Assembly (NCBI GenBank): GCA_913060665.1 | Contig: CAJXUY010000021.1 | Span: 1-64,000, forward strand | From: an uncultured Oleiphilaceae bacterium | GTDB taxonomy: Bacteria; Pseudomonadota; Gammaproteobacteria; Pseudomonadales; Oleiphilaceae | Direction: 5' to 3' | DNA: 64,000 bases | In this document: piece after piece, positions 17,462 to 22,817 of the stretch | Layout: every line of letters starts with the position of its first letter | Position numbering within the stretch: the stretch's first letter is position 1 | Program-made: the position numbers and the translations under genes | The notes under the pieces: model-generated | Seen by the model: only the letters and a program-made list of their open reading frames with translations | The model's database searches: none | What the model was told of the DNA's origin: nothing

Positions 17462-18358
17462 ATGTTTAACTTTTTACCTGCATCATTGATTGGTGTACTT
17501 TGTTCTTTTTTCTTGATAGTGAATACGATTGTGCTATGTACAATAATTTATATTCCAACCATTATTAAGATTATTATTCCTTTAAAATTTGTACAAGTGA
17601 TCTGTACTAAAACCATTATTGTGATTTCTGAGCTATGGATCAGTATTAATAGTGGTTGGATGAAATTATTCCAACGCACCGTGTGGGACGTTGAAGGTCT
17701 TGAAGGCCTTAGCCATAAAGGTTGGTATTTGGTAACTAGTAATCATCAGAGTTGGGTCGATATTTTTGCTTTACAGCATATTTTTAATCGTCGTATTCCT
17801 TTCTTAAAATTCTTTATAAAGAAAGAGTTAATTTGGGTACCCTTTATTGGTGTAGCCTGGTGGGCGATGGACTTCCCATTTATGAAGCGCTACAGCAAAG
17901 AGTTTTTGAAAAAGCACCCAGAAATGCGCGGCAAGGATGTTGAAACGACACGTAAAGCCTGTCAAAAGTTCCGCTATACTCCCGTAAGCGTGATCAATTT
18001 TGCTGAAGGAACTCGATTTACAGACCAAAAACATGCGCGCCAAAAGTCGCCGTACAAAAACTTATTGAAGCCTAAAGTGGGTGGTACCGCGCTAGTGCTT
18101 GATGCGATGGGTGATTGTATTTCTACATTGCTGGATATAACGATTGTGTACCCTGATGGACGGCCTGGATTTTGGGATTTTATGTGCGGCAAGGTTAAGC
18201 GGGTTTCCATACGTATTAACCTGGTAGAAATTCCGCAAGAGTTAAGAAACCGTGATTATAATCAAGATGACCAGCATCGGAATAAAATCAAAAACTGGGT
18301 GGACGAATTGTGGGTGAGCAAAGACCGGTTTATATCTGACTTTAATTCGCTTAAATAA
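17462..18358 (+). CDS. Lysophospholipid acyltransferase (YihG/PlsC-like)
   Basis: NHQSWVD motif, FAEGTRF motif, N-terminal TM. Confidence 0.85.
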   Translation: MFNFLPASLIGVLCSFFLIVNTIVLCTIIYIPTIIKIIIPLKFVQVICTKTIIVISELWISINSGWMKLFQRTVWDVEGLEGLSHKGWYLVTSNHQSWVDIFALQHIFNRRIPFLKFFIKKELIWVPFIGVAWWAMDFPFMKRYSKEFLKKHPEMRGKDVETTRKACQKFRYTPVSVINFAEGTRFTDQKHARQKSPYKNLLKPKVGGTALVLDAMGDCISTLLDITIVYPDGRPGFWDFMCGKVKRVSIRINLVEIPQELRNRDYNQDDQHRNKIKNWVDELWVSKDRFISDFNSLK

Positions 18359-18586: not shown

Positions 18587-19462
18587 ATGAATTATGTCGT
18601 GGACCATAAAATAGCACTTGAACACATTATGATCGAACACTTTTCTGACGCTAGAAAGAGAGTGGATAGTGTTTGTGCAGATCAATTTTTCTCGCTCAAA
18701 ACAGTTACCCAGCGGCACTGGGATAATAGGAAAGACATTCCTCAGGATATAGCTGCCATGCCTCGAGCGGGTTGGGGATTGGCTAAAAAACTAGCCGGTA
18801 AGGGCGGTACCGCCAACCGGGTACCTAGTGGTAAAGAACTGGCGCTATTAGATATTGTGACTGAAGATTTGTTGCAACTGGATAAGTTGTCAGAAACGCT
18901 TAATGATTACCTTGAGAAAGAAGTGAGATCCGTTGGGTTGACTACACAAGAGCTTTCTAATTTATTAGATAAGCGAAATGCGCCAATGGTCGAAACGTGG
19001 TTAAAACAAAGAATAGAAACCCACGCTGTCGCACAGGAAGGTGTTCGAGAGTCACTGGTGTTTATTGCTACAGGGTTAGTCGGGCGAGCATTTTCAGATA
19101 AAGCTGTATTTGGAAGTTCGATGGGTTTGGGGTCAATGGCCGCAACATCACTTTACTTAAGCCATCAAGGTTGGTGGTCAGGGTTGATGGTTCAGGTATT
19201 CGGAGTGCCTGGCTGGGTATCAGTCGCTGGCATGATGGGTGGCGTTGTGGCGACATTGACAGTTATGCCGATACTATCACCGCTGGTTGAGACGGGTGTA
19301 AACCGCTTTAGGGCGCAAAGAATGCTAACCAAAATTGTAGATTCTGTTGAACAGGATATGATGAAGGAAAGCCCAGAGGTTGCAGGGATAGCGGGTCGGT
19401 TAGCAACGTTTATCGGATTGCTGCCTGACTTGTTACAAATTGCGGTTAAGCTTAAAAGTTAA
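18587..19462 (+). CDS. Membrane-associated protein of unknown function
   Basis: 291 aa; soluble helical N-terminus, central hydrophobic segments at aa ~155-235; 15 bp before next gene. Confidence 0.6.
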   Translation: MNYVVDHKIALEHIMIEHFSDARKRVDSVCADQFFSLKTVTQRHWDNRKDIPQDIAAMPRAGWGLAKKLAGKGGTANRVPSGKELALLDIVTEDLLQLDKLSETLNDYLEKEVRSVGLTTQELSNLLDKRNAPMVETWLKQRIETHAVAQEGVRESLVFIATGLVGRAFSDKAVFGSSMGLGSMAATSLYLSHQGWWSGLMVQVFGVPGWVSVAGMMGGVVATLTVMPILSPLVETGVNRFRAQRMLTKIVDSVEQDMMKESPEVAGIAGRLATFIGLLPDLLQIAVKLKS

Positions 19463-19477
19463 AGGTGCTGGATAACT

Positions 19478-20476
19478 ATGCTGAAATTTAATCGAGACAG
19501 GCTACGGGCTAGCCACGAAAGTATTTGGCTCGCAGTTGATTTTGTAATGTTAGGGTTATTGCTATTAAACCTTGCTTTCATACTGTTTGACTCCCTTTAT
19601 ATCACTGAATATTTTAGGGCTACGTTGGATTTTATTTCGCCTTCTATCGCTATGCATTATCAGCCGATCCATAATAATTTTATATTGATTGACCTCTGCT
19701 TTGTTGCGGTTTTCTTTACTGAATTCTGTTTGCGTTGGTTTGTTTCGGTTAAACGTAAGGAATATCTTCGTTGGTACTTTTTCCCGGTTATACACTGGTA
19801 TGATTTGGTAGGTTGTATTCCGCTGGGTGCGACCCGCATATTTAGATTTTTGAGGGTCTTTTCGATTATTTATCGTCTGCATAAATACAAAATCGTAGAT
19901 TTGACGAACTCGAAAATATATCAGTTTATAACCTTTTATTATGATGTTTTCATTGAAGAGCTTAGCGATCGAATTGTAGTAAAGGTGTTGTCAGATGCGC
20001 AGAAAGATCTTCGACAAGGGGCTCCGCTACTTGATGAAATTGCGACTAAAGTGGTGGCGACCCGTCAAGATACGCTTAGTCTTTGGATTGCGTCGGTGCT
20101 GACTCATGCTGGTCACTCAATTGAAGATAAAACATCCGGGGTGGTGATTCGTGATCATGTGAAAAGTAGCGTTTCAAAGGCGGTTCGTGAGAATAGCGAA
20201 GTATCACGGCTAAAACTGGTTCCCGTTTTAGGGAGTTCCATCGAACAAACGCTAGAAAGTGCCGTCGCTGATATTGTGATTCAATCAGTAATTCATCTAT
20301 TGAAAGATATGAGCCCTCAAAAAATAAACTATTTCATTACCCACGGCATTACTGCGACCCCATTGGAAGAAAAAACGTTGGATAAAGAAGTGTTAGCTAT
20401 CGTAGACGAATGTATTGAACTACTAAAAGGCCATGTTTCTAATCAGCGTTGGAAAGCACACTTTGATCAAGACTGA
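19478..20476 (+). CDS. Voltage-sensor-domain-like (ion_trans S1-S4) protein without recognisable pore
   Basis: S2 'FFTEFCLRW', S3 'WYDLVGCIP', S4 'RIFRFLRVFSIIYRLHKYK'; C-terminal ~190 aa soluble and without P-loop selectivity filter. Confidence 0.65.
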   Translation: MLKFNRDRLRASHESIWLAVDFVMLGLLLLNLAFILFDSLYITEYFRATLDFISPSIAMHYQPIHNNFILIDLCFVAVFFTEFCLRWFVSVKRKEYLRWYFFPVIHWYDLVGCIPLGATRIFRFLRVFSIIYRLHKYKIVDLTNSKIYQFITFYYDVFIEELSDRIVVKVLSDAQKDLRQGAPLLDEIATKVVATRQDTLSLWIASVLTHAGHSIEDKTSGVVIRDHVKSSVSKAVRENSEVSRLKLVPVLGSSIEQTLESAVADIVIQSVIHLLKDMSPQKINYFITHGITATPLEEKTLDKEVLAIVDECIELLKGHVSNQRWKAHFDQD

Positions 20477-20577: not shown

Positions 20578-21126
20578 ATGAAATTAGTACAAACTATTAC
20601 ATTATGCAGTGCCGTTGTTCTATCTATGTTTTCATTCGCCGAAGAAGTGCCAGAGAAAGCTAAAGCATTGGTACCGACTTTTCAGGCTTGGGGTGAAAAT
20701 GCGGTGTTAGTGGATGCGGTTAAGGCACATAATGCGACTGGAATAACCCTAGACGAGATTCAGGCTCGCGATAAAAGTTGGCGTGCAGTTTCAGGCGTTA
20801 ACGACTTTATGAAGGCGTTAATGACCAATAGCGCAGCACAGGAAATGAGCACCCTTGAACAATCCAAACCTTATTTGCTTGAGCTATTTCTCATGGATAA
20901 TCAAGGTGCGAATGTAGCGATGACGAATAAAACCTCAGATTATTGGCAGGGTGATGAAGCTAAGTTTACTGAGAGCTTTAAAGGTGGTGTAGGTGCCGTT
21001 CATCTGGGTGAAGTTGAGTTTGATGAGAGTGCGCAGGCCTACTTGGTGCAAATATCAGTACCCGTTATGGAGGCTGGAAAGGCTATTGGTGCCATTACTG
21101 TCGGCATTAACTTAGACGAACTGTAA
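20578..21126 (+). CDS. Periplasmic single-Cache/PDC-like sensor protein
   Basis: Signal peptide then 'FLMDNQGANVAMTNKTSDYWQGDEAKF...VPVMEAGKAIGAITVGINLDEL', typical of dCache/sCache folds. Confidence 0.7.
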   Translation: MKLVQTITLCSAVVLSMFSFAEEVPEKAKALVPTFQAWGENAVLVDAVKAHNATGITLDEIQARDKSWRAVSGVNDFMKALMTNSAAQEMSTLEQSKPYLLELFLMDNQGANVAMTNKTSDYWQGDEAKFTESFKGGVGAVHLGEVEFDESAQAYLVQISVPVMEAGKAIGAITVGINLDEL

Positions 21127-21170
21127 AAGTCGTTTCAATTAATTCTGTAATTTTTGGTTAGAGAAATACT

Positions 21171-22817
21171 ATGATCTGGTTTAAGAACTTGAAGTTTGTC
21201 TGGAAACTATCAATCCCCATTTTTTTGATAGCGTTCACAATGATAATGCTCTCGTATGACAGTATTAAACTAGTTGATAGGCTATCGATAGAGGGGGAGC
21301 AAATTACTCAGGAGTACATCCCGAGTATAGACTTTCTTCTACAAGCCGATAGAGATGCTTACCAAACGCAAGTGGCAGAGCGAAGCATGCTGTTTTTGAA
21401 ACCAGGTGGAGATGATTACTTGGAAATGAAAAAGCAGCATAATGAAAACCTGTTGCAAGTAGTAGAGAGGGTTACCAAGTTTTCAAAAATTACCCAGATC
21501 GATGGTGCAGCGCCGCTGTTGGATAAGTTTAATAGTGCTTATTCAGCGTGGAGTACTCAATCACTAAAAATTATTGCTGAGCTCGATGCGAAATCGAGAA
21601 TTGGGAGAACGAATGCCCGTGAACTGAGTTTCGGTGAGGGTTTGGCTAGTTTTAGTGAGATGCGAACAACGCTTGATAAGCTATCTGAACTGGCGCTTGC
21701 GGAATCTTCTGTTTTGTCACAGAAAATGAATGATCATATGTCAGTAGCGATCGCACAACAATTAGCCGGATTACTGATTGGCTTAGTGATCTGCCTTGGA
21801 ATAGCGGTGTTTTTTCCTAGACTTATTACTAATGACCTTAATGAAATTAACAGGAAGTTAACCGATATTGCTGAAGGGGAGGGTGATCTTACCGCTCGAA
21901 TTGATATTCGACGAAAAGATGAGCTGGGGAACCTGTCATACTCAGTTAACCGGTTTATCGGCCAGCTTCAAAATATGGTTCAAGAGATTGCAAGTAACAC
22001 CCGTAGTGTCGCAACCGCGGCAGAGGAACTTTCCTCTATTGCTGTAGATGTTAACGAGTCTGTAGCCCAAGAGAGTAGTGCTATAGATATGGTCGTTACG
22101 GCTGTGACTGAGATGGGGGCTGCAGTAGAGCAAGTTGCAGCGAACACCACTGAAACGGCGCAACAGGCTAATGACGCTAGTGATGCGGCGACTACAGGGC
22201 GAGATATCGTCAGTAGTACGATGACAGAAATTGAATTGTTATCAGGTAAGATTCATGATGCCTCAATGGTCATTGAGCAACTTCAGGCCGAGGCCAATAG
22301 TATTGCATCGGTATTAGATGTAATTAGAGGTATTGCCGAACAGACTAACTTGCTTGCTCTTAATGCTGCCATTGAGGCTGCCCGAGCGGGAGAGCAAGGG
22401 CGTGGCTTCGCTGTGGTAGCAGATGAAGTGAGAACACTCGCCAGTAAAACCCAACAGTCGACTCAAGATATTCAAGTTATGATCGAAACCTTACAGTCGG
22501 GTGTAGCGCGCGCGGTTGCTTCGATGGAAGAGGGGACTCAAAAAGCCACTACAACGGTTGAAATTGGCGAGAAAGCCAATAGTGCGCTCGTTGATATTGA
22601 GACGTCAATTCAAGGGATTAATGACAAAGCCATACAAATTGCCAGCGCTACAGAGCAGCAGCACCAAGTCACTGAAGATATTAACAAAAATATGGCAATG
22701 ATTAGTGATCTGTCGAGTCATAGTACAGAAAGTGCTCAGCAAGTTACGAATTCGAGCTCAGAATTAGCAGAGCTATCGGCCAATCTTCAGACTATTGTGA
22801 GTCGCTTTAAAGTGTAG
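21171..22817 (+). CDS. Methyl-accepting chemotaxis protein
   Basis: Two TMs, HAMP, and signalling tip '[40 protein letters not shown]'. Confidence 0.95.

Follow-up and report, generated by a model that had tools for sequence, protein, structure and literature searches.

The question raised by this locus is what a protein does that resembles the voltage sensor of an ion channel and lacks the pore, and whether it works together with the membrane protein encoded just upstream. The locus lies in a contig of an uncultured Oleiphilaceae bacterium (CAJXUY010000021.1), and by the window we mean the whole stretch of 64,000 nucleotides that was analysed. A first-pass annotation had read the two genes, here called ORF A and ORF B, as a two-gene unit and as the best candidate for an undescribed system. 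ORF A (291 aa) and ORF B (332 aa) are separated by 15 bp. Neither had an accepted family in searches of Pfam, NCBIfam, PADLOC and PDB sequences. PADLOC-DB, which covers anti-phage defence, gave no match for A, for B, for the Acinetobacter homologue of B, or for L130, a shorter protein described below. Hydrophobic stretches in ORF A are at residues 157-175, 204-234 and 265-283. ORF B has three strong hydrophobic segments (residues 18-36, 67-85 and 113-131) and none after these. The features of the locus are as follows, with the basis of each in brackets.

17462..18358, + strand: PlsC-like acyltransferase (PF01553, Pfam E 1.8e-14)
18587..19462, + strand: ORF A, 291 aa, adjoining B in the window's genus only (genome comparison)
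19478..20476, + strand: ORF B, pore-less voltage-sensor homologue with a predicted cytosolic helical domain (ORF call, homologues, AF2)
19523..19603, + strand: S1 helix, residues 16-42, with D21, N31 and D38 (AF2 helix 15-42; conservation)
19679..19753, + strand: S2 helix, residues 68-92, F79xxE82xxxR86 (AF2 helix 68-93; motif from PMC4878010)
19775..19822, + strand: short S3, residues 100-115, including HWYDLVGCIP and the counter-charge D109 (AF2 helices 101-105 and 107-111)
19829..19885, + strand: S4 helix, residues 118-136, R120xxR123xxR126xxS129xxxR133 (AF2 helix 118-136; conservation)
19913..20014, + strand: post-S4 helix, residues 146-179, FYY...EE(L/V/I)SDR(I/V)V, probable coupling element (conservation)
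20024..20470, + strand: all-helical, predicted cytosolic C-terminal domain, residues 183-331 (AF2, pLDDT mostly 75-89)

Farther along the window, at 20578-22817, a 182-aa apparently secreted protein with a signal-peptide-like start is encoded directly upstream of a methyl-accepting chemotaxis protein-like gene; these two are possibly a sensor pair.

We compared ORF B with known voltage sensors. The S2 (FFTEFCLRW), S3 (WYDLVGCIP) and S4 (RIFRFLRVFSIIYRLHKYK) segments reported in the first-pass annotation were all present as given. The Pfam Ion_trans model scored 13.6 bits against ORF B (E 0.04), under its 25-bit cut-off. A profile was made from a 68-row alignment of non-redundant homologues. 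When residues 1-145 of this profile were compared in hhalign with aligned 6-TM K+ channels from bacteria, the match was 97.8% (E 6.6e-13, for one comparison). No control exceeded 1.7%, the value for the reversed profile; the 15 column-shuffled profiles reached 0.7% at the highest, and unrelated families stayed at or below 0.5%. The sensor region also matched classical Kv-like channels (95.9%) and the Nav-like channels of its own genome (77.8%), and in the reverse search the ORF B profile retrieved genuine TVGYGD channels in other genomes (L121, E 2e-6; L122, E 1e-5). By profile comparison, then, the N-terminal part of ORF B is a homologue of the S1-S4 voltage sensor, and the earlier reading of the protein as voltage-sensor-like is upheld by a match of 97.8% against no more than 1.7% in any control. 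Among the closest known systems are bacterial 6-TM K+ channels (PF00520 / PF07885), above all a short-S3 TVGYGD type (L121, L122 and L137). Their S1-S4 is homologous to that of B (hhalign 97.4-97.8%), and they share with it a W-x-D-L-x-G/A-C-I-P S3 and an arginine-rich S4. ORF B has a short S3 and hardly any S3-S4 paddle, and a similarly short form is found in these three channels.

We scored residue conservation in a set of 104 homologues. They represent about 16 families of Gammaproteobacteria, and identity falls to about 25% in the most distant. The S4 arginines were nearly invariant (R120 in 102 homologues, R123 and R126 in all 104, and R133 in 103), as were the acidic residues of the other helices: E/D82 in S2 and D/E109 in S3 were present in all 104, D38 in S1 in 101, and D21, also in S1, in 103. 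Voltage sensors have a signature in S2, published as [FYW]xx[ED]xxx[RK] (PMC4878010). It is represented in ORF B by F79, E82 and R86 and was complete in 83 of the 104 homologues; R86 was replaced by Gly in 14 and is missing from some lineages.

In contrast to the 6-TM K+ channels, ORF B has no S5, pore helix, filter or S6. After S4, a single one of the 68 aligned homologues had a TM-like stretch reaching a KD value of 1.6 (at 1.61), and none of the 68 had a K+ or Na+ filter motif. The C-terminal part matched both sets of channel profiles, pore included, at only 0.1%, so that no S5-P-S6 is hidden there. The absence of pore helix, filter and S6 noted in the first-pass annotation is thus confirmed, and ORF B is without a pore. 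The soluble helical domain of about 190 aa that it placed after S4 was likewise borne out by the predicted helices and by the lack of any notable TM-like stretch.

An AF2 model of ORF B made from the 68-row alignment had a mean pLDDT of 85.4; it replaced a model made from 24 sequences (pLDDT 66.8). In the model, S1, S2 and S4 are helical, as expected, whereas S3 is broken; a long helix at residues 146-179 is followed by several further soluble helices. A Foldseek search of the full-length model against the PDB gave no significant match (best E 0.75); NavAb, NavMs and KCNQ2 were among the weak matches, with E >5 only. The S1-S4 fold is thus predicted from sequence. The topology is probably N-in/C-in. 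The charges of the loops agree with this orientation, with 5+/1- in the S2-S3 loop, 4+/1- after S4, and 1+/2- in the S1-S2 loop.

The most strongly conserved part of ORF B lies after S4. Mean conservation was 0.70 in the post-S4 region, the highest of three regions, compared with 0.62 in the sensor and 0.47 in the remainder. The motif FYYxxxxEE(L/V/I)SDR(I/V)V was nearly invariant among the 104 homologues (E160 in 104, E161 in 102, D164 and R165 in 103 each), and we infer that this helix links S4 to the cytosolic domain. The domain itself has a conserved PxxG (249-252), K317 and W325, and had no match to any known family. We attribute weak matches to designed repeats, V-ATPase subunit H, a chaperonin and MMS19_C to composition, and did not keep them. 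In one genome (G661; 2.0 Mb, 93% complete), a 185-aa protein (L224:8051-8608) consists of the cytosolic domain only. Its site is equivalent to that of a locus with full-length B in a relative (L220), and there is no sensor coding upstream of it. Retention of the domain alone suggests that the domain is functional and is regulated by the sensor. If the protein is genuine, the domain would work alone and the sensor would modulate it; there is only one such protein, and it might be a degenerate copy.

We propose that ORF B is an inner-membrane regulator: S4 would move in response to voltage, and the invariant E-E-x-S-D-R helix would carry this movement to a partner-binding cytosolic domain. We give this reading a probability of about one half. 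In the proposed mechanism, the four near-invariant arginines of S4 would face the acidic residues D38, E82 and D109. Upon depolarisation or hyperpolarisation of the membrane, S4 would shift and its arginines would exchange between these acidic partners. The post-S4 helix (EE-L/V-SDR) would relay the shift to the cytosolic domain, and this domain would in turn interact differently with a partner at the membrane face. The movement, its coupling and the partner are all postulated. The design would be like that of a voltage-sensing phosphatase, a sensor followed by a cytosolic output, except that the output would be non-enzymatic and helical. Several observations speak against the proposal: the short S3 and paddle, the lack of a significant Foldseek match, the loss of R86 in some lineages, a cytosolic domain outside all known families, and gene neighbours that differ between lineages and so point to no particular output. 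On sequence evidence, the voltage-regulated effector that the first-pass annotation had suggested for ORF B is the most likely of its readings.

The S1-S4 region could instead be a retired sensor, its fold and salt bridges structural, with B serving as a static anchor or scaffold for the cytosolic domain. S1-S4 bundles that resemble sensors but have little voltage function occur in TRP channels. The short S3 and paddle, the conservation of the post-S4 motif as strongly as that of S4, and the one genome without the membrane part are all in keeping with this explanation. However, a mere anchor would have no need for arginines at every third position of S4, together with the acids of S2 and S3, in 102 to 104 of 104 homologues from about 16 families. 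We consider a retired sensor unlikely.

Another explanation is that protons or cations pass through the sensor of ORF B itself, in the manner of Hv1 or of the omega current through the isolated Shaker sensor. B is like Hv1 / VSOP in having a pore-less S1-S4 and three S4 arginines spaced RxxRxxR. In Hv1 these three arginines are followed by Asn, to which the small polar S129 of B may be likened. Conduction by B is also conceivable because the Shaker sensor, when it lacks the pore, passes current under hyperpolarisation, according to a passage in PMC13095418 that cites Zhao and Blunck 2016. The criteria for Hv1 are Asp or Glu at the selectivity position in S1 and an invariant Trp in S4 (RxWRxxR) (PMC10377628, PMC7059764). 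The position of this aspartate, equated with N31 by S1 spacing rather than by structure, lies seven residues before D38 and was Asn in 97 of the 104 homologues, Asp in 5 (Moraxellaceae-type) and Ser in 2. At position 122, that of the Hv1 Trp, we found Leu in 40 of the 68 aligned homologues and Phe in 28, and never Trp. An Hv1-like reading is therefore disfavoured, and the proton pathway that had also been suggested for this protein is weakened. Unlike Hv1, B has a C-terminal domain of 190 aa, and a leak needs no large conserved cytosolic domain. Conduction as the function of B is thus improbable, and a regulator with a cytosolic output remains our preferred reading.

In the order, 69 of 295 sampled genomes contained B; in the class, 10 of 369 did, and outside the class no sampled genome did. 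A scan of GTDB genomes gave at least 557 confirmed B loci, with Alteromonadaceae and Marinobacter foremost among the matches listed. Distant members are present in Halomonas and Acinetobacter baumannii. The A. baumannii proteins are annotated either as hypothetical or as 'preprotein translocase subunit SecA', a label that is surely wrong for B (L176:5815-6861, CP040048.1). Two records labelled as phage also contain B homologues, and these look like host contigs. The neighbours of B vary between lineages. They include GloB-like and MltD-like genes in Alteromonadaceae and, in Marinobacter, what we take to be an amidase and an acyl-CoA dehydrogenase, with no functional theme in either.

B might also be an accessory subunit that modifies the gating of a pore-bearing channel, like electrically silent Kv subunits without S5-S6. 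The same genome does encode two Nav-like channels and one TVGYGD K+ channel, and split sensors and pores can assemble, as stated in a passage of PMC13095418. Against this, we noticed in no lineage a channel gene that recurs next to B, and we regard such a role as very improbable.

The pairing of A with B did not hold as a general rule. In each of the five genomes of the window's genus, the two genes lie side by side in the same direction, with differing downstream flanks, and to this extent the pairing proposed by the first-pass annotation was seen; it was seen nowhere else. Among 58 relatives, B was present in 32 and A in 11, and most genomes with B had no detectable A. In six genomes from three other genera that have both, the genes were far apart or on separate contigs (in G022, at 0.86 Mb and 4.65 Mb). 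Such unlinked homologues are one of the findings that the first-pass annotation had itself named as contradicting its reading. The acyltransferase gene upstream of A is fixed in the genus as firmly as the A-B pair, so that common descent explains the linkage. The presence of B without A, and of unlinked A and B outside the genus, rules out A as an obligate partner, and the pair is a local gene order and not a conserved system. That A and B form one two-gene voltage-regulated system is thus hardly credible, despite their adjacency in 5/5 genomes of the genus, given that B occurs mostly without A, that they lie far apart elsewhere, and that descent accounts for the linkage.

In two of the three other genera, A adjoins a gene for an amylase-fold enzyme (PF00128 in G022) and one that is presumably for glucosyl-3-phosphoglycerate synthase. 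These sugar-osmolyte-like neighbours, which adjoin the distant homologues of A at L139:4480-5385 and L142:4151-5227, hint at an osmotic role for ORF A.

For the regulator proposed here, the most concrete candidate target comes from Moraxellaceae. There, minC-minD follow B directly in five genomes, which we assigned to this family by the gene content they have in common with A. baumannii, and minC-minD-minE do so in A. baumannii (CP040048). At five of these six loci, an acyltransferase gene immediately preceded B; in CP040048.1, B (L176:5815-6861) lies between the acyltransferase and minCDE. In three of the Moraxellaceae-type genomes, the best homologue of the window's acyltransferase was the gene adjoining B. 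The acyltransferase-B order is therefore common to two families, in which B itself is only about 25% identical. The link to min was confined to Moraxellaceae; no min genes adjoin B in the window's organism. Membrane potential is required for the membrane binding and oscillation of MinD, as stated in a passage of PMC3793866 that cites Strahl and Hamoen 2010. Because minCDE is immediately downstream of B, and because this machinery depends on membrane potential, the Min division-site machinery stands out as the candidate in Moraxellaceae. Division-site control as the output would apply to Moraxellaceae only, and the analysis gave no evidence of it for the window's organism. The Acinetobacter division protein BlhA is presumably encoded elsewhere than minCD. 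We did not equate B with BlhA, which one paper names apart from minCD. As a separate observation, five Moraxellaceae-type B proteins have Asp at S1 position 31, which corresponds to the selectivity aspartate of Hv1; this sets them apart from the other members of the family.

Pore-less voltage sensors are known from eukaryotes, as Hv1 and the voltage-sensing phosphatases (VSP). In both B and Ci-VSP, a single S1-S4 sensor precedes a cytosolic output domain and there is no pore, and S1 of Ci-VSP, like that of most B, is without the Hv1 aspartate (PMC10377628). In contrast to the animal Ci-VSP, B is bacterial and its predicted output is all-helical, with no match to a phosphatase domain in Pfam or NCBIfam. 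A second, shorter family of about 260 aa, equally undescribed, occurs in other Gammaproteobacteria (L129:1384-2163 and L130:1465-2244, both on the - strand). It resembles B in its pore-less, sensor-like N-terminus and related helical C-terminus, and differs in that its C-terminus is much shorter, its identity to B is about 26%, and its neighbours are others. A 2023 review states, on the basis of database searches, that every prokaryotic voltage sensor comes with a pore (PMC10377628). In open-licence PMC text, we found no paper describing the B family, and channels were the only dedicated voltage sensors of bacteria that we found recorded. The earlier description of the system as undescribed therefore holds for ORF B alone, which has no Pfam or NCBIfam model and no paper in that text.

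Tentatively, B may represent a bacterial voltage-signalling family, in which the sensor of a K+ channel had its pore exchanged for a cytosolic regulator, so that membrane potential would directly control a process in the cytosol, and whose target in Moraxellaceae is perhaps Min. Membrane potential influences bacterial division and signalling. With B, which is present in Acinetobacter and in hundreds of marine and related bacteria, cells may be able to monitor the voltage across their own membrane. If this is true, B would be a prokaryotic counterpart of the voltage-sensing phosphatases in organisms where pore-less voltage sensors were said not to exist. A conserved and genetically tractable family of pore-less sensors, with hundreds of members, would give direct entry to bacterial voltage sensing, and B could also provide compact sensors for voltage indicators.
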